Positions 1 through 32,736 of a stretch of DNA of 64,000 nucleotides are shown here, one piece after another (within the stretch, counting starts at the first letter, position 1; every line of letters begins with the position of its first letter). Origin of the DNA: Candolleomyces eurysporus (taxonomy: Eukaryota; Basidiomycota; Agaricomycetes; Agaricales; Psathyrellaceae); NCBI GenBank assembly GCA_027579435.1, contig JANBPK010001474.1, positions 62,001-126,000 on the forward strand, read 5' to 3'. The notes under the pieces are model-generated. The model made no database searches. It was not told the DNA's origin and saw only the letters and a list, made by a program, of their open reading frames with translations. The translations under genes and the position numbers were made by a program.

Positions 1-1049
1 CCTCAAACGTCGACATCTTTCGAGGCCTTCATGGGGTTCGAGAGGTTTGTCTCAAGAGGTATCGAGTGCTCAGGCAGTCTCAGTCATACCCCCTTCCGGG
101 AACACTTGGTTGAGGTAGGCAATTTCCCGGAGATCTTCATGCTGAACGACTTTGTTCATGTTCTTTTGTCAGTCTCTGATTCGAGAAATGATTATCTGGT
201 ATAATCATCGCCACCCTAACCTTCTTCCCTTCGAGGGTGTCTTCCAACCCGATGACGACTTTGAGAGAGTTTATCTCGTCTCACCGTACCATGCGAACGG
301 AACAGTCATGGAATATCTGAAGAAGTACCCCAGTGTAGAGAGGCGTTTACTGGTCCGTTGAATTCCATTTGCCACGCCATGATGATATACTCATGGATAT
401 GGTTTCTATAGCTCTTGGACGTCCTTTCTGGCCTTTCATACCTCCATAGGAACAACATTGTCCATGGAGACATCAAAGGCGCCAACGTTCTCGTCGATGC
501 CCAAGGCAGAGCTTGTCTAGCAGACCTAGGGTTGTCGCGGCTCAGGGACGCCCAAATCCTCACATGGACATCTATCCAATCAACCATTGCACCATGGGGA
601 ACCCTTCACTGGCAAGCACCTGAGCTTTTATCAGCGCAATTGCAGGACCAGGAACACATTCCTCCCCCTACTACCTTCAGTGACATGTACGCTTTTGGTT
701 GCTTGGCTTACGAGGTGATTTGTACTGCGCCCTATAAGCCTTTAACCTGATATTGACACCGCTATAGATCTTCACCGGCCTTTTTCCCTTCGAGGAGCTG
801 TGGACCCGCGGTCGGAGTTACATTCAAGTATACAGAGTGATCTCAACACAGGTTGTTTTGCACGGAAGACGACCTCAGATGCCTGCAGCCGATAGCCCTG
901 CGTACTCGTGCTACGGCTTGACCGACAGCATCTGGGATATGATGGAGAAGTGCTGGGACCGCGAAGCCAGGCACAGACCGTCGGCCGACAGCCTCTCCAA
1001 GCTTCCCTACTTGGTGGATGTCCCCGACGACCGTTCGGTTCGTGAGTGA
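1..1049 (+). pseudogene. TKL-like protein kinase, 5' end outside window, frameshifted
   Basis: The 3' two-thirds of a kinase of the same family as those at 5428-7228 and 12717-14275. Exons read about 1-113, 169-352, 412-714 and 768-1049. Visible parts are the ATP-lysine segment (VCLKRYR), the catalytic loop HGDIKGAN (Arg of HRD replaced by Gly), DLG in place of DFG, and the APE motif as APELL. Compared with the intact copy at 6235-6299, the first exon carries one extra base in a C run near 90-95. This puts a TGA just before the intron donor at about 115. The break could be real decay or a homopolymer read error, because the downstream exons are otherwise intact. The gene begins upstream of the window. 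It lies tail-to-tail with a decayed enoyl-CoA hydratase copy, the same arrangement as in the intact unit at 5428-8576. Confidence 0.7.
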
Positions 1050-1464
1050 TGGGATCCGGGTCAGCGCATTTGACCACCGTTCATGCGAGCAACAACGTTC
1101 CCCGCGATCACATCATCATGGGCCGGGCGTTCTCTTTTTTCATTCATTATTCTTTGTTTTGTCTCCTCTTATATGTCACTATGCCGTCTCTATTCTTTCT
1201 TTTGGCCCTCGGTTTCACTAACCTAGACTCACAGTTTGATAGCTAGCCATTTCTCTTTCCCCCCAATCTTCTCTCTACGCTATCTTCAGGTGTTCTTTGT
1301 TTCTAATGGTCTCGTGTAATTAACGCTTCTCCTCTGCATCATTCCTAAACGTCGAATTTTGCCGTTGCTGTATATGGTGACATACATTCATATTCAATCG
1401 CTTATAATTATGATTCTCATCGTCTGTCCTGGCTGAGATCTGAGAAGCATTCCGCATCTCAGCT
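1050..1464. other. Intergenic, between convergent kinase and hydratase relic
   Basis: Pyrimidine-rich 3' flank shared by the two convergent genes. I see no coding or RNA signal. Confidence 0.5.
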
Positions 1465-2198
1465 TCAAAGTTTTGCTCTGGCAGCGGCGTCGTGTATGAA
1501 TGTGTTAGTCGTACGTGTGTCCCTTCGTATATCTTTGAGTGTGTCTCGGTAGAGGTCATGCCAAAACGAAAGCAATCGAGTGAGTGGTCCATTCCATTCC
1601 AGACGACAGGAAGACGATCCACCAACCTTGATGAGACCCCACACGCCAGCTTGTGCGTTCCCGCTAATTCTCTCGGCCACTTCTTCAGCTTTGGCGAGAA
1701 CAACAGCAGTGTTTCCGCTGGCAATGTGGTCGAGGATTTCAGCGGCCAGCGCCTCTGGAGGAGTGAACCGGTAGCAACGCGATCCGGCGCTGAAGTCTGT
1801 GATCGCCGATCTTGGCACGGAGGATAGCAGCAAAAGAGAGAGGCCAGTGAGCACCGAAGTGAACCTATGGTGAAATGATAGCATTTAATTGAGTGATTTA
1901 GGAGAAACGAAGATTGGGCAGGGTTTCTCTGACCTCGTTCATACACAGCCAGGCATTACGCTTGCTACCGTCAGTCATGACGCGGTAGTCGCAAGTGAGA
2001 GAGCATCATGCCTCCGGCGAAGCTATGACCGTTGATGGCAGCAATGGTAGGGATAGGGAGAATGGAGGGTATATCAACGTTTTCAAAAGGGTGGGAGTAA
2101 CGCAGCTAGAACTCACTTGGGAAAGTGAGAAGCTAGCTTCGTAAGGAGTGGGTTGAAAGTGGCTGGGCGGTTCTCAAGATCAATATGTTACCTCAGTC
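1465..2198 (-). pseudogene. Truncated enoyl-CoA hydratase/isomerase copy, C-terminal half
   Basis: Closely matches the intact gene at 7378-8576 over its 3' exons, including the AAARAKL C-terminus (AKL is a PTS1 peroxisomal signal). The 5' exons are missing: similarity stops near 2198, where sequence from the kinase family begins. Against the intact copy there is a 5-base deletion around 1775-1790, between the segments DHRLQR and RFTPPEAL, which breaks the frame. Both faults make this a non-functional duplicate. Confidence 0.75.
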
Positions 2199-2425
2199 AT
2201 GCAGTTGCACAGAGTGATAAGAGAGGTTACGCGAGGAGGACGACCCCGGAAGCCCAGCCAGTAACCCAGCCTACTCGTGCTATGACTTGACTGACAGGAT
2301 TTGGGAGATGATGGTGATGTGCTGGGCAGGCGAAGCCAAGCTGAGACTCGGACCATCCGTCGACGACCTCTCCAAGCTTCCCTACTTGATGGTCCCCGAC
2401 GACCGTTTGGGAGAGAAATGGATCG
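2199..2425 (+). pseudogene. Relic of TKL-like kinase C-terminus
   Basis: Recognisable similarity to the last kinase exon at about 7005-7228: the region of YGLTDAIWEMMVMCWAGEAKLRPSAD and the final DDRSVGE stretch. It is interrupted by stops and small indels, and only the last exon remains. It is fused at about 2199 to the truncated hydratase copy, which marks a recombination breakpoint. Confidence 0.65.
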
Positions 2426-2544
2426 GTGGTTATTATCCTTTCATTAGACTTTGATTTATCCTACTTTATGTTTTGTTGTCAATAGCTATGGCCGCAACTT
2501 ATCTGTTATAAATGTTCGTACTGTCGGAGTATGGCGGGCCCCTC

Positions 2545-2745
2545 GTTTCGGAGTTTGGCTCTGGCAGCAGCGTCGTGTATAAACGCACGACTCGTGCGGT
2601 CCTTTTCGCTGTAGCATGACCTCTACCGAGACACGCTCAAGCACGCAGCGAGGGCGACGGAAGAGAGAGGCAAGCGGGCGTCGAAGTGGCCCTATACTAG
2701 TAATGGTAAAACGTAGCGGGTAGGCGTTGCGCTTGCTAACGCGGG
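2545..2745 (-). pseudogene. Relic of enoyl-CoA hydratase 3' exons with internal inversion
   Basis: Bases 2545-2600 match the 3' end of the hydratase gene (the AAARAKL-coding region near 7380-7420). A short piece at about 2615-2642 matches the next segment of that gene in the opposite orientation, and 2645-2745 resumes weak similarity in the original orientation. There is no usable frame. It is the third and most decayed partner of the kinase-hydratase unit. Confidence 0.5.
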
Positions 2746-5364
2746 GCGTCCGCTCAGGCGATCAGTACTCAGTTTCGAAGATGAGCAAATATTCCACGAA
2801 CGCTTCAGGGGAGATTGAGCTAAGAATTGAAACCCGTGATTCCACTGCTCAATTGAGACGTACTGAATGAGGTTGCATCTTGTGAGCGCATTGAACCGTG
2901 GCGTGTTTATGAAGTCTTGTCGTTTCGATTTGATTCCAATTGCCTGATTAGCACGCTTGTCAAAAGGCTGTGGCCTCGAGTCTCTCGGGCTGCTTTGAGC
3001 CCGCAGACAATACAAAAAAAAACCTTTTTGGCCAGACGCTATCCTCCAAGGAGACGGGATCAGCCTGATGCACACTTACTGGGGACGCCATATCGATAGC
3101 ACGAGGTGAGCTGGGTCTGCCTCATTGAAGACAGTCATTTAGCGATAAGGTAAGCATGGTGAAACGCGGTGGAAGAAGGGACATCTCTCTACATGGTCGC
3201 CTTTGGTACCCCTAATCCCGGCTACGAAAAAAGCATCTGGAAAGGGGTGATTGCGGGTATTTCGTCCTGCGGCGCTGTATGATATTGACAGTCCCATGGT
3301 ACGATGGCTCGGACAACTTTGCTACTCGCTACAGCAAGTTTTGAATGAGAATCCTTTTCCGTGGTCTTACATGCGGCAGCCGAGGATCCTGCCAGAATGT
3401 CTGAAGAATCAGTTTGGTCGTTTCTGGTGTCAACGCTCGACGGTAGAAATTTTTAAAGAGAGGCCGGGAGGCTAGAATGGCGATGGGATGAATCGAAGCT
3501 CAATGTTAACTGAAACAAGGAAACACGCACCCAAGCCTCTGTCTCAAAGTTCTAGAAAAGGACAGTGGGAGAAAGGAACATCGGAGGGTGTACCATACTA
3601 CCATTGTTGGAATTTGGTTTGCGTAAGCTCTCGTGCCTACATGCATTTCGCTCTGAGGCAAACCGTGAGTTGGAAGTTGGGAGCCTGGATACATGATGAA
3701 GGGTAATGGTGGGCTAACGGGACAGCCTCAAAATTAAATTGCAAACTGCGGTTATGCAGGATTTTTGGTTGTGGCATTCCCAGGGTGGACGGTCACGGAT
3801 CCAGGTACCATTGATACATGAAACGATATGGTCTTCAAGGTTTAGATTCTTGATTGCCAGTGCGGTGCGTTGTGTGTAAATGGCATGAGGTTGGATGTTG
3901 AAAGTTGCTATGATCCTGGCGATTCCTGCAGGGAGGCATTCCCTCCATTCGGAATAGTTCAGATAGGCCTCATTGCTCACCTACATGTAGTACGAAACAG
4001 AGAGTCAGCGCATATTAGCTTTTCGCCCCATAGATGAAACGTGCATATTCTTGAAACATGCCTCGTTGCATCGAAGGTAAAGCCTAGCAGCCCCAGGACG
4101 TCAGTACACAGAGATGAGGGCGGTAGCCCAGACCAGATTGTTCCTGGTATTCATCGACGCATTCATTCCTCGTGTCTCAGAGAAAGGGATGATCTGCCGT
4201 TTCTATGATATGATATGACAAGAGGGACAATGTGAAAGGTCAACCACTTCGGGCACGCACACGGTGGATTCGTCCGCTTCGTCGTCCAGCGGGCAATTGA
4301 AGATGCCGGTCTGCGTCGATGAAGATTAACAGTCAAAGGCCAAGGGCGGTTAAGTTTGAAACATTTGATGGAATAAAATTCGTTTCTGGGCGGGTTAACC
4401 TCCATGCTCGGCCTAGTAGATGATAATAAGATCCTGTGCTTTGATCCTAGATTTGTTGCGCATGCCCTCGAAGCCGCGATGATCTTGCTCCTTATTGTGC
4501 ACATTCACAATTTCCGAGTTGTGAATGTGCACAATTTCCGAGTGGTCTGGCGGAATCGAAGATAGTTTGTCATCGCATCGGCATTGAAAACAGCATCACC
4601 GCAGACAGACAAGACACTGCGGGCCCCGATCCCTAAGGCCTACACTCTTGCAAACGTTGGTCACAAATATCGGTGAAGCTTGATGGGCGTGTACGAGTGC
4701 TATCGAAGGGGTGTTTCAAAGGGCCACTGGCCTCGCGGCATCCGGGATCGTCAATGGAGCGGACAATGGGCTTGCCAGTGATGATTCAGTTGATCTTCAT
4801 TCAGCCTGAACAAATGAACCTCGAGGGTTTCAACGCCGGACGCAGTTGGGAATGACCGAAGATCCTGCAACGTGGTGATGCATGCTGCATGATGATTGTC
4901 GGTCTCCTTTGCTTCTCACCATGCTCAGCTCGAGATCTCAGCGCTGAGCAGCCCTACCAGTCCAAACAAGCGTTATTTCGCCGAGACGAATTTGGCTCGA
5001 CTTCCGCAAGGCAAGGAAGGTGGCCGACACCATCTTTAAAGACCCGACCTCGAAGTCTGTCCCAACTTCGCCGTGAGTGCTACAATCAAAATTAGTTCTA
5101 TAAATAGGAGGAGCCGAGCCTTCAGGAACGTTATTGTTTGGCACGTCGTTTATATCACCCCTTTTTGGTGTCCACTCTGGGGCCTGTCGTCATCCCCAAC
5201 TCGTGCCCTCCACCTTGCCATGTTTCAGGAAGCCGAATGCGTCAGTGTATGTGGCCCAGCCGACAACCAAACTCTGCATAACCGACTGTTACGCTTCATG
5301 CACATGTATCCTCGCGGCGCATGGTTCGCCTTGCGATATACCACACAGGTGATGCATCTAAGAG
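2746..5364. other. Gene-poor accessory region
   Basis: About 2.6 kb without a convincing gene. Open frames are short, overlap on both strands and show no recognisable domain or intron chain. The only clear structure is a 17-bp inverted repeat at 4494-4535, listed separately. Confidence 0.5.
4494..4535. repeat. Perfect 17-bp inverted repeat with 8-bp spacer
   Basis: The arm ATTGTGCACATTCACAA at 4494-4510 is exactly complementary to 4519-4535. The spacer TTTCCGAG is repeated almost directly after the second arm. This can form a hairpin and is also a partial direct repeat. I see no attached gene, so its function is unknown. Confidence 0.85.
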
Positions 5365-29184: not shown

Positions 29185-32100
29185 CTAGACGTACAGCCAG
29201 CGTCCAAGACTAGCAGCCCATTGGGGAAGGTCCGTCGTGACTGCATCCTCAAACGAGGGACGTAACGGATTGAATTCGCCACTCTGCTTCTCAAAGCCCT
29301 CTGCGATCTCAGGGTTTGGCGTCTCTGGTGGAGTAACTTGACCTGCTTCCTGCCTCGAACGGTGAGAATCAGATCCAGGGGTTCGATGTTCCGGGAAAGG
29401 TGACAAGATCCCGAGACCACTTCCGCCCACAGATGTGAGATATGGCTGGAAGCCTTGGCGGATCAATTCATCAATCAACGTTTGCAAGTCACCGTCCTTG
29501 AAGTCTGTTGATTCACTCTCCTCAGCGAACAAGGAACACGAAATCGAAGACTTGATGACATACCATCAGGAATGAGCGTGACTGCACATCCGCCTCCACC
29601 CGCTCCTGTCAACTTGGTGTACAGACCGAAAGGAGTCTTCGTTGTCTCTCGGATGGTCTCGAGTGCGGGATGGGATACGCCCAACGTGACCAAGTGATCA
29701 TGATTCTCACTGATCAGGGTCTGATATCATAAGATAACGTTCAGTCAGTCCGCGAGCTATGAATCAAGCTAACAGTACAACTCACATTGAGAGCAGATAT
29801 AAGCGCATCACGCGGCAATTCAGGATCCGCCAGAGCCCTCCTGGCCTCATCACTGATCCCCTGGATAGACTTGAGAATGCCATTGACCAGTTCGGGTTCC
29901 TGGAAGAAAATCCACATTCACACATAAGTAAAAGCGACCACAACAGCGGCCCTGGACTAGATCAAAAAGCGATTTGTACGCACATTCGCCTTCTTCTCGC
30001 CCACACCTGCGACAAGCTTCTTGGTGTCTCGAGGCACCTTCGAATTAGTCAAGAGGAACTTGAGCGATTTGAACCTGGAAATGTAACTGGGTAAGCTTCC
30101 TAGCGCATGGAAGGGGGGGGTTATTGGGCGCAACCAGCATCGCAGAGCGAATGGTTGAATAGCCGGAACTCAAAAGAAAGACGTACCCCTGGATCCCTTC
30201 CATTCCGCCGTCTCTTCCAAAGCCGGCACGCGTGTACCCCAATGCACCTCCAAACACAGACACGCTGTTGTCAACGCCACTGGGATTTCCATGCAAGATC
30301 TTCTCAGCAATAAAGGCCCATCGGTTGGCTTCTTCAGCGATATCGTGCGGAATGGCGCGGCGCCCTTCATGATGGGTATGCGTAACAGTTGAAGGTGGCG
30401 AGGGAGGGATGCTGATGCGACGGTGTACGAGCAGCATCGCCGCAGCTCCGCAAGTGGAGAACGACGCGGAGGAGCCCAAGCCAGCCCCAACCGGCAGCGT
30501 GGACCGTGCGGTGAAGTTGAGTGCAGGTCTATTGAGAATGAGGTCAGTAAGCGAGATGACAGATATTCATTACAATCAAGGGTATCGACTATCATCCCGC
30601 GGAGGGAGAAAAGGTCGGGGATGGCTGAGCGAGGAGACGAGGTGGGTTACGTCGTAGCGCTGGTCCCACCTGCCTCGCACCTCACGAGAAGGATGTAATG
30701 TGATAAAAAGGGACGCACCGTCTATCACCCTTGGCAAGGATCATGTACAGGTACAAGAACGCAAGTGACGCAGCACTAGCAGCTTTCTTCTCCTCTCCCA
30801 ACTCAGCGAGGGTTGTTGATGTGAGGGCATCGATCAACCTTTGATCAAGTTCCTCGGGGTGTTCACCACCGACTGGGACAGGTGTTACGGAGTCCCATGG
30901 AAGGCTTGGAATATCCCACTCGTGATAGAAATTATCAATATCGGTGAAGTGAACGGAGATTTTAGTGTCCGTGCGGGGTGAGGTCAGGCCATAGCAACGC
31001 AGATCAACTGAAGCAGCAATGGCGGTCTGCAAGGAAGACGATTAGTATGGGACCCAAATTTCATGACTTCAAAGAGGTGCAAGTTGTACGTTGCTGAGCC
31101 CTGGTGCCCCCGTAGATGACGATGCGGCTGTGACGCATCCTCTACCCACGAGGCAGAAGCACCTCTGTGCCTGAGCACCCAGGGCTGAAGAAAGGCGGGA
31201 AACTTCGAGAAGGGAAAGAGACTCACGACGCCATGGACAACAGCGTGTTCTCCGAACAGGATGACCTTGCCAGGGGCACTGACCAACCACTCCAACTCCT
31301 GTTTGCCGCTGTCGAGATCCAGATCGTGGACTGCACGACTGAGTGCATCAGGGTCGGGGACTCGCACATACTTGTTCTGAGCGGCATTCAATTCGATGGC
31401 ACCAGCTTCTATGAGGGCATGTTCCAGGTCGCTTTGAAGGTCTTGCGGGTCTTCAATGCCAACACACAGGCGGATGAGGTCCTCCGGGAGTCCACGGGCA
31501 GCACGAGTCGCGGCGTCAATCGATGCGTGCCTGGAACGCAGTCGTAAGCCCTTCGCCTGCACGAAATGCATCCAAGAGTGGTACTCACGACATGACACAG
31601 GGCATGCTAATCAGACTGTTCACAGCGCCGAAGCTGACACTAATGCCCCAGAGCCTGGTAGCGGCAACAATGCGTTCACTGAGCTCCTTGTTTCCGGTCT
31701 CGAAACTAAGTACTGCCCCATTTCCATCGGCGATTCGCAAGTGGACATCCCGTTGAGGATGGTCAGGTAAACCCGGGTAATTGACGTGGAAACCGAGGTT
31801 CCAGAGGTATTCCGCAACGTGTTGTGCCGTCGACTCTTGCCTATCCATGCGCAGGGCGAGAGTCTTGATACCTCGCAACAGGAGGAAGGAGTCGATTGGG
31901 GTCAAGGCATTCCCCACAGCGTTGATGGTGAAAGCTATTTGCTTGGCAATGTCCTCCCTGTTGCAGGTTACGACTCCGGCCATGAGGTCGTGATGACCGC
32001 TGAGGTACTTGGTCGCACTGTCATACACGATGTCCGCGCCGTGCTCCAACGGCCGCTGCAAGTACGGACTCATCATGGTGTTATCTACCACGATCAGTGC

Positions 32101-32736
32101 ACCTGGGGCAATTTCCTTCACATCTTTACTGATTGTCGCTAAATCGACTATTTTGAGAAGCGGGTTGGTCGGGGATTCGAGGAGAACCATGGCTGTTTTG
32201 GTTGGGTGGATGCAGGAGTGGAGATTTTCAGGATTGGTCGTGTCGACATGATGTACGACTACCCCAACGTGTTTTCGGATGTAGCTGAGTAGACGGTTGG
32301 TCCCGCCGTACAAATCGTCGCCCGCGATGACCTCGTCGCCTGGCTTCAGCAGGCGCAGGATGACGTCGAGTGCCGCCATTCCAGACGACACGGTGAACGC
32401 ATGGGCTGCAGAGGAGATTTTGGCAATGTGGTGTTCTGCGAGCGGGTCAGTTCCGGAAGTGTGGTTTCAAGACGCCAAAATGGACGTACGTAGGTGGCTT
32501 CTGGTAGGATTTCCGCTTCGCGAGTAGTCGTACTCATTACCAACTCCCTTGAAAGTTGCACTCTGGTAGATTGGGACAGAGCTGCTGCCGTACTGATCTT
32601 TCATATCAGGATTGTCGACGGTCGCGCATAGCGTCGAAAACCTATACGGCTTCCTCGACCTTGCAAATGGTGATTCTGGCTCCGGTGTGGGCAAGTCATG
32701 GAGCATGGCCTTGGTTTCAACCGATGTCGGAGCCAT
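29185..32736 (-). CDS. Cystathionine beta-lyase fused in frame to mevalonate kinase
   Basis: The N-terminal half is a PLP-dependent trans-sulfuration enzyme. MAPTSVETKAMLHDLP starts at 32736; then YRFSTLCATVDNPD, DQYGSSSVPIYQSATFK, and the PLP-lysine motif DSATKYLSGHHDLMAGV typical of Str3-type cystathionine beta-lyase (cystathionine to homocysteine). After the exon starting near 31531 (HASIDAATRAARGLPEDLIR, LCVGIEDPQDL) the frame continues without stop or in-frame ATG through a linker of about 37 residues. It enters WLVSAPGKVILFGEHAVVHGV, the N-terminus of mevalonate kinase. Later blocks are LPVGAGLGSSASFST (ATP motif), EKILHGNPSGVDNSVS and KLTGAGGGGCAVTL, ending LGRWLYV. Both enzymes have all their motifs. 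Introns after HGV (31027-31226, 200 nt) and after the GDR segment (about 190 nt) are unusually long here. Divergent from VPS71. Confidence 0.88.

Follow-up and report, generated by a model that had tools for sequence, protein, structure and literature searches.

A predicted fused cystathionine beta-lyase and mevalonate kinase gene of Candolleomyces eurysporus and its relatives across Basidiomycota

The window analysed here is a 64,000-nucleotide stretch of a Candolleomyces eurysporus contig, and it carries on its minus strand a gene in which a cystathionine beta-lyase (CBL) is joined to a mevalonate kinase (MVK) (Table 1). The gene runs from 32736 to 29185, with the start ATG at 32736-32734 and the stop codon at 29187-29185; these are exactly the ends given in an earlier note made from the bare sequence. 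Splice sites were set by eye and the exons then joined by script, giving nine exons that splice to a 2730-nt coding sequence for 909 aa. All eight introns have GT-AG ends, with lengths of 54, 58, 200, 190, 112, 84, 65, and 59 nt (822 nt in sum). An annotated protein of Candolleomyces aberdarensis (P0002) differs from the window protein at only 10 of 909 positions.

Table 1. Features of the CBL-MVK fusion gene, in window coordinates.
Feature	Position	Strand	Basis
CBL-MVK fusion gene, ATG to stop, nine exons, 909 aa	29185..32736	-	splice model; P0002 comparison
Exon 1: N-terminal extension and CBL start	32490..32736	-	splice model
Exon 2: bulk of CBL, including K225	31589..32435	-	splice model, PF01053, alignment
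Intron 2, 58 nt, in-frame ATG at 31571	31531..31588	-	splice model, frame scan
Exon 3 (junction): CBL C-terminus, linker, MVK N-terminus (SAPGKVILFGEHAVVHG)	31227..31530	-	splice model, frame scan
Linker, residues 405-448; R421, A431, V432, L435, E445, W446 among conserved	31281..31412	-	alignment
Exon 4: MVK	30719..31026	-	splice model
Exon 5: MVK, GLGSSAS loop, E644, D655	30187..30528	-	splice model, alignment, solved MVKs
Exon 6: MVK	29984..30074	-	splice model
Exon 7: MVK	29786..29899	-	splice model
Exon 8: MVK, GAGGGGC motif	29564..29720	-	splice model, alignment
Exon 9: MVK C-terminus, variable stretch, C-terminal tail, stop	29185..29504	-	splice model
C-terminal tail, residues 888-909, W...G.W motif	29188..29253	-	alignment, pattern count

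The identity of the two halves was established from family profiles and solved structures. In P0002, PF01053 spans residues 44-404, followed by the N- and C-terminal GHMP kinase domains at 566-601 and 747-804. The same protein scores 532.2 bits against the cystathionine beta-lyase model TIGR01329 (curated cut-off 487.5 bits), and the best 25 of the 51 families in its NCBIfam result are all lyase-type. The kinase half of the window protein, scored alone, reaches 206 bits against the mevalonate kinase model TIGR00549, for which the cut-off is 163.05 bits. The best solved match of the lyase half is 1ibj, which we take to be the Arabidopsis cystathionine beta-lyase (residues 32-403 vs. chain residues 86-458 of 464, 357 bits). 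The kinase half is best matched by 1kvk and 2r3v, presumably the rat and human mevalonate kinases respectively, with 1kvk aligned over chain residues 9-380 at 222 bits.

The window protein contains the CBL residues Y71, R73, Y125, D200, K225, and R385, with K225 presumably being the PLP lysine, and the MVK residues and motifs K453, E459, H460, GLGSSAS, E644, D655, and GAGGGGC. These CBL and MVK residues presumably serve in catalysis or substrate binding. Among 119 aligned relatives, Y125, R385, K453, H460, S589, and D655 are invariant, while K225, E459, S588, and E644 are each kept in 118 and D200 in 117. Y71 and R73 are present in 110 of the 119, the other nine having gaps at these positions. 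The earlier note had described the catalytic motifs of both parts as complete, and this is upheld by active-site residues that are intact in the window protein and near-invariant in its relatives.

The two halves meet in exon 3, which is open in the fusion frame only and contains three and two stops in the other two frames. As this exon passes from CBL to MVK without a stop, the proposal that both enzymes lie in one continuous polypeptide holds. The linker is longer than the ~37 residues first estimated, with 44 counted between L404 and S449, and its length ranges from 32 to 60 residues among the 119 aligned relatives. The further statement that there is no in-frame ATG is correct for exon 3, where no start codon of the kinase is left, but not for intron 2, which has one at 31571. 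The kinase half aligns with the solved MVKs from chain residue 9 onwards, placing the junction near the native N-terminus of the kinase. A conserved internal start within the linker was considered and rejected; a linker Met occurs in 22/119 aligned relatives, with no more than 5/119 at any column.

Profile searches of the organism's own genome (65.85 Mb, 1296 contigs) returned six matches to the MVK profile, with two at the fusion locus, two on contig C172, and one each on C1017 and C1052. As the matches are exon pieces, no MVK or CBL match in the genome exceeds its family cut-off. With the CBL profile TIGR01329 the fusion locus reaches 441.8 bits, ahead of 244 at the next one; both scores are exon-wise and fall short of the 487.5-bit cut-off. 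The C172 matches belong to a second copy of the gene (C172:10727-13240; locus L017:4228-6741), which matches the 3552-base gene over bases 844-3371 with 98% identity, with introns kept, both ends missing, and four gaps. The exon gaps, 2 bp in the linker exon and 1 bp in exon 7, together with the partial coverage, argue against a second working gene, and judged by its sequence this copy appears to be a partial duplicate that no longer works. P0007, a database entry for an incomplete C. eurysporus protein, probably corresponds to this broken copy.

The remaining two matches lie in other kinase genes or probably do so. C1017 was rejected as an MVK, as the locus is a homoserine kinase (206.5 vs. 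168.25 bits), which is also the better fit for the matched stretch taken alone. The match on C1052 spans 67 residues and contains a generic GHMP loop. The highest-scoring NCBIfam model for it is MVK, at just 29.2 bits (cut-off 163.05), compared with 23.6 for galactokinase. Among solved structures it is closest to sugar kinases and galactokinase, each with a weak match, and a piece ~1.2 kb downstream at the same locus matches galactokinase-type enzymes and not MVK, making a galactokinase-family gene probable on sequence grounds. A separate second MVK was not found by the MVK profile search of this genome, the broken copy on C172 aside. Assuming a complete genome, the fusion is the enzyme on which the mevalonate pathway depends.

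The earlier note treated a fusion of these two enzymes as undescribed. This is incorrect, as Liu et al. (2012) reported it under the name 'metC-MVK' (PMC3342255) and two later papers report it again (PMC3720577, PMC4129116), so the CBL-MVK fusion is already known. According to Liu et al., metC-MVK occurs in Ganoderma and other basidiomycetes, 12 in all, with Laccaria bicolor as the one exception without it. It is described there as the only MVK homologue and the only best CBL hit (KEGG K01760) per genome, with a mean length of about 886 aa (PMC3342255). The authors also report a 16-residue insert in mid-MVK in 7/12 species (PMC3342255). A segment of the present protein near residues 613-632 is largely missing in P0068 and in most non-Agaricomycete rows, and at a guess this could be the same insert. 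The later papers extend the fusion to two further mushrooms (PMC4129116, PMC3720577), and in one of these it was found as a mycelial transcriptome unigene (PMC3720577). An enzyme assay of metC-MVK, or a test of the effect of joining, was not found in the open-licence literature searched, as far as its accessible text extends.

A protein search, which the earlier note had suggested as a gauge of how widely the fusion occurs, shows that it recurs. With the kinase and linker as query, 1114 proteins were found at E ≤ 0.001 among 8000 scored, proteins of <500 residues being outside the length range. PF01053 is present in 120/120 of the matches listed for this kinase-side query, with query coverage of 88–100%, which argues against a chance join. 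These rows are clusters and not species, and those that name an organism are all Agaricomycetes. P0007, probably the genome's own broken copy, is among the 120, and removing it leaves the 119-row alignment used throughout.

A second query restricted to proteins of at least 947 residues returned 58 proteins, of which 36 contain PF01053 and 28 of these are named. The 28 named long fusions comprise one Agaricomycete (Phellinidium), two Tremellomycetes (Naganishia), one Wallemia, three Pucciniomycotina rows (Rhodotorula toruloides twice and Puccinia triticina), and 21 Ustilaginomycotina, including Ustilago, Sporisorium, Tilletia, Exobasidium, and Malassezia. Some of these models look imperfect, with an extra VPS9 part in Rhodotorula, a long N-terminal extension in Wallemia, and coverage of PF01053 profile positions 69-380 only in Puccinia. 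In two Malassezia models (P0166, P0167) the CBL-MVK is joined to O-acetylhomoserine sulfhydrylase (TIGR01326), another homocysteine-making enzyme, and these may be either triple fusions or merged neighbours. Among the matches listed, both domains were not found together in a named non-basidiomycete.

The other 22 of the 58 long proteins consist of 12 from Ascomycota, two from Mucoromycota, a mushroom model that lacks the lyase domain (P0135), and seven isolated cases. The twelve ascomycete models (P0172-P0183) are ~1000 aa long and join MVK to alpha repeats of the protein prenyltransferase type (PF01239), which may reflect merged adjacent genes or a conserved gene order. In the two Mucoromycota models (P0170, P0185), which come from two species, MVK is joined to a ChAPs domain protein.

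The lengths of the source contigs offer some indication of how the fusion is transcribed. In twelve listed rows the longest contig is 2.85–3.8 kb, exceeding the coding length by 177–433 nt in nine and by 888–1007 nt in three. Since the present gene has 822 nt of introns, the nine rows with short remainders may well be spliced transcripts, a reading drawn from lengths alone, with some of the proteins incomplete and with an intron content that may differ in other species.

The two halves appear to share one history. Across 65 proteins, pairwise distances of the lyase and kinase halves correlate with r = 0.908, a value reached in 0/999 permutations. Unrooted trees of the halves, for which only the fusion part of P0138, P0163, and P0166 was used, both contain a split of the Agaricomycetes (support 0.97 lyase, 0.80 kinase) and of the Ustilaginomycotina (0.995 lyase, 0.87 kinase). 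The two Tremellomycetes are likewise split off in both (1.0 in each), as are the two Pucciniomycotina (0.94 lyase, 0.88 kinase). The trees have 32/62 splits in common, and 3 of the 28 strong lyase splits are contradicted by strong splits in the kinase tree. Because the trees largely agree, one ancient fusion, inherited as a unit and kept intact, is the simplest history suggested by these sequences. The fusion seems to be a derived character shared by Basidiomycota, in line with the proposal of Liu et al. that it arose in the ancestor of the phylum (PMC3342255).

Taken together, the gene very probably encodes the bifunctional CBL-MVK (metC-MVK) of basidiomycetes, with a single spliced mRNA translated into a single polypeptide. 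The possibility that neighbouring genes were misread as one through annotation or assembly is close to negligible. Automatic models do merge neighbours, and the models of kinase with prenyltransferase or ChAPs protein may be examples, but here the junction lies inside a single exon without a stop and is present, with conserved linker columns, in all 120 matches listed. A transcriptome unigene of the fusion from another mushroom also speaks against an artefact (PMC3720577). A merge of assembly or gene models was rejected because the junction falls in one exon and the linker is conserved, linker conservation in itself making it very unlikely. An alternative of a different kind is a second, internally started transcript which keeps intron 2 and uses the ATG at 31571, producing a kinase with a short lyase remnant. 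Such an intron-retaining or internal transcript is formally possible since no stop interrupts the reading frame between 31610 and the end of exon 3, and this ATG lies in that frame. However, the ATG sits in an intron with GT-AG ends, and we regard this transcript as highly improbable.

It is also improbable, if a little less so, that the fusion is translated whole and then cut in the linker, leaving two ordinary enzymes and reducing the join to a co-expression device. The linker is indeed less well conserved than the two domains, with a mean majority-residue share of 0.60 among the 119 aligned relatives compared to 0.89 for CBL and 0.79 for MVK. In nine listed non-Agaricomycete rows it is 52–112 residues long and different in sequence. 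However, it contains no conserved dibasic site, with KR/RR in 19/119 and any dibasic pair in 23/119 aligned relatives, and parts of it are strongly kept (R421 in 111/119, A431 in 116/119, and L435, E445, and W446 in 117/119 each). The halves also stay together in all lineages seen. Processing into two enzymes, which the earlier note had raised, is therefore disfavoured both by the scarcity of KR/RR pairs and by the ceiling of 5/119 on a linker Met at any column.

A second conserved element follows the kinase. The W...G.W motif of the C-terminal tail occurs in 150/155 fusion rows, made up of 118/119 in the main alignment, where one row is unusable, and 32/36 long fusions. The fusion rows without it are from Wallemia, Puccinia, and two Malassezia. 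The same pattern applied to non-basidiomycete control kinases matches 0/14 usable rows, with one more row unusable. With the loosest pattern 2/14 usable controls match, 123–129 residues past the kinase motif and probably within the partner to which the kinase is joined. This contrast is no more than suggestive, as the 14 controls are joined models and two of them match the looser pattern. Conceivably, the join has a function beyond mere inheritance, with the kinase docked onto the lyase core by the conserved linker and, in most lineages, by the W...G.W tail. The state of one enzyme, e.g. PLP or cystathionine binding, would then alter how active the other is, linking the supply of sterol precursors to that of homocysteine and methyl donors. 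This docking is rather unlikely, the more so as the motif is not universal, though the partly conserved linker and the C-terminal motif are worth testing.

For the bifunctional enzyme, the N-terminal half is predicted to act as a PLP enzyme converting cystathionine to homocysteine, and the C-terminal half to carry out the ATP-dependent phosphorylation of mevalonate, which is implied by its being the sole MVK found. A single mRNA would give a single unprocessed protein with both halves active. Cys/Met-type PLP lyases are usually tetramers whereas MVK is usually a dimer, making a lyase tetramer with four kinase domains plausible. A lyase-type oligomer carrying kinase domains would, through shared assembly, hold both activities in a fixed ratio and in the same place. 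The CBL and MVK reactions have no common substrate, which makes direct channelling unlikely; the join could serve to fix the stoichiometry, to keep both enzymes in one location, or to couple them allosterically.

In much of a fungal phylum, an enzyme essential to the sterol pathway appears to be produced as an attachment to one of sulfur amino-acid metabolism. Should the coupling prove functional, this would be a clear case of a covalent link between two unrelated pathways. There is also a warning for annotators, as the fusion is often labelled by the lyase alone; many entries are named only 'cystathionine beta-lyase' and hence MVK can look missing.

Comparison with free-standing enzymes emphasises what is particular to the fusion. 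The plant CBL 1ibj resembles the lyase half but has no kinase, and the animal MVKs 1kvk and 2r3v resemble the kinase half but have no lyase, their alignment ending before the C-terminal tail of the fusion. In yeast the same two enzymes, Str3 and Erg12, are encoded by separate genes. Str3 has a peroxisomal SKL signal (PMC9929924), whereas the window protein ends WLYV. A peroxisomal C-terminal signal was accordingly rejected for the fusion, which has no SKL-like end. To the account of Liu et al. the present analysis adds the exact junction exon, the broken second copy, wider lineages, the congruence of the trees, and the C-terminal motif. Compared with metC-MVK as presented by Liu et al. (PMC3342255), the window protein has the same enzymes in the same order and is likewise the sole MVK found in its genome, at 909 aa vs. 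about 886 aa, and the two show no essential difference.
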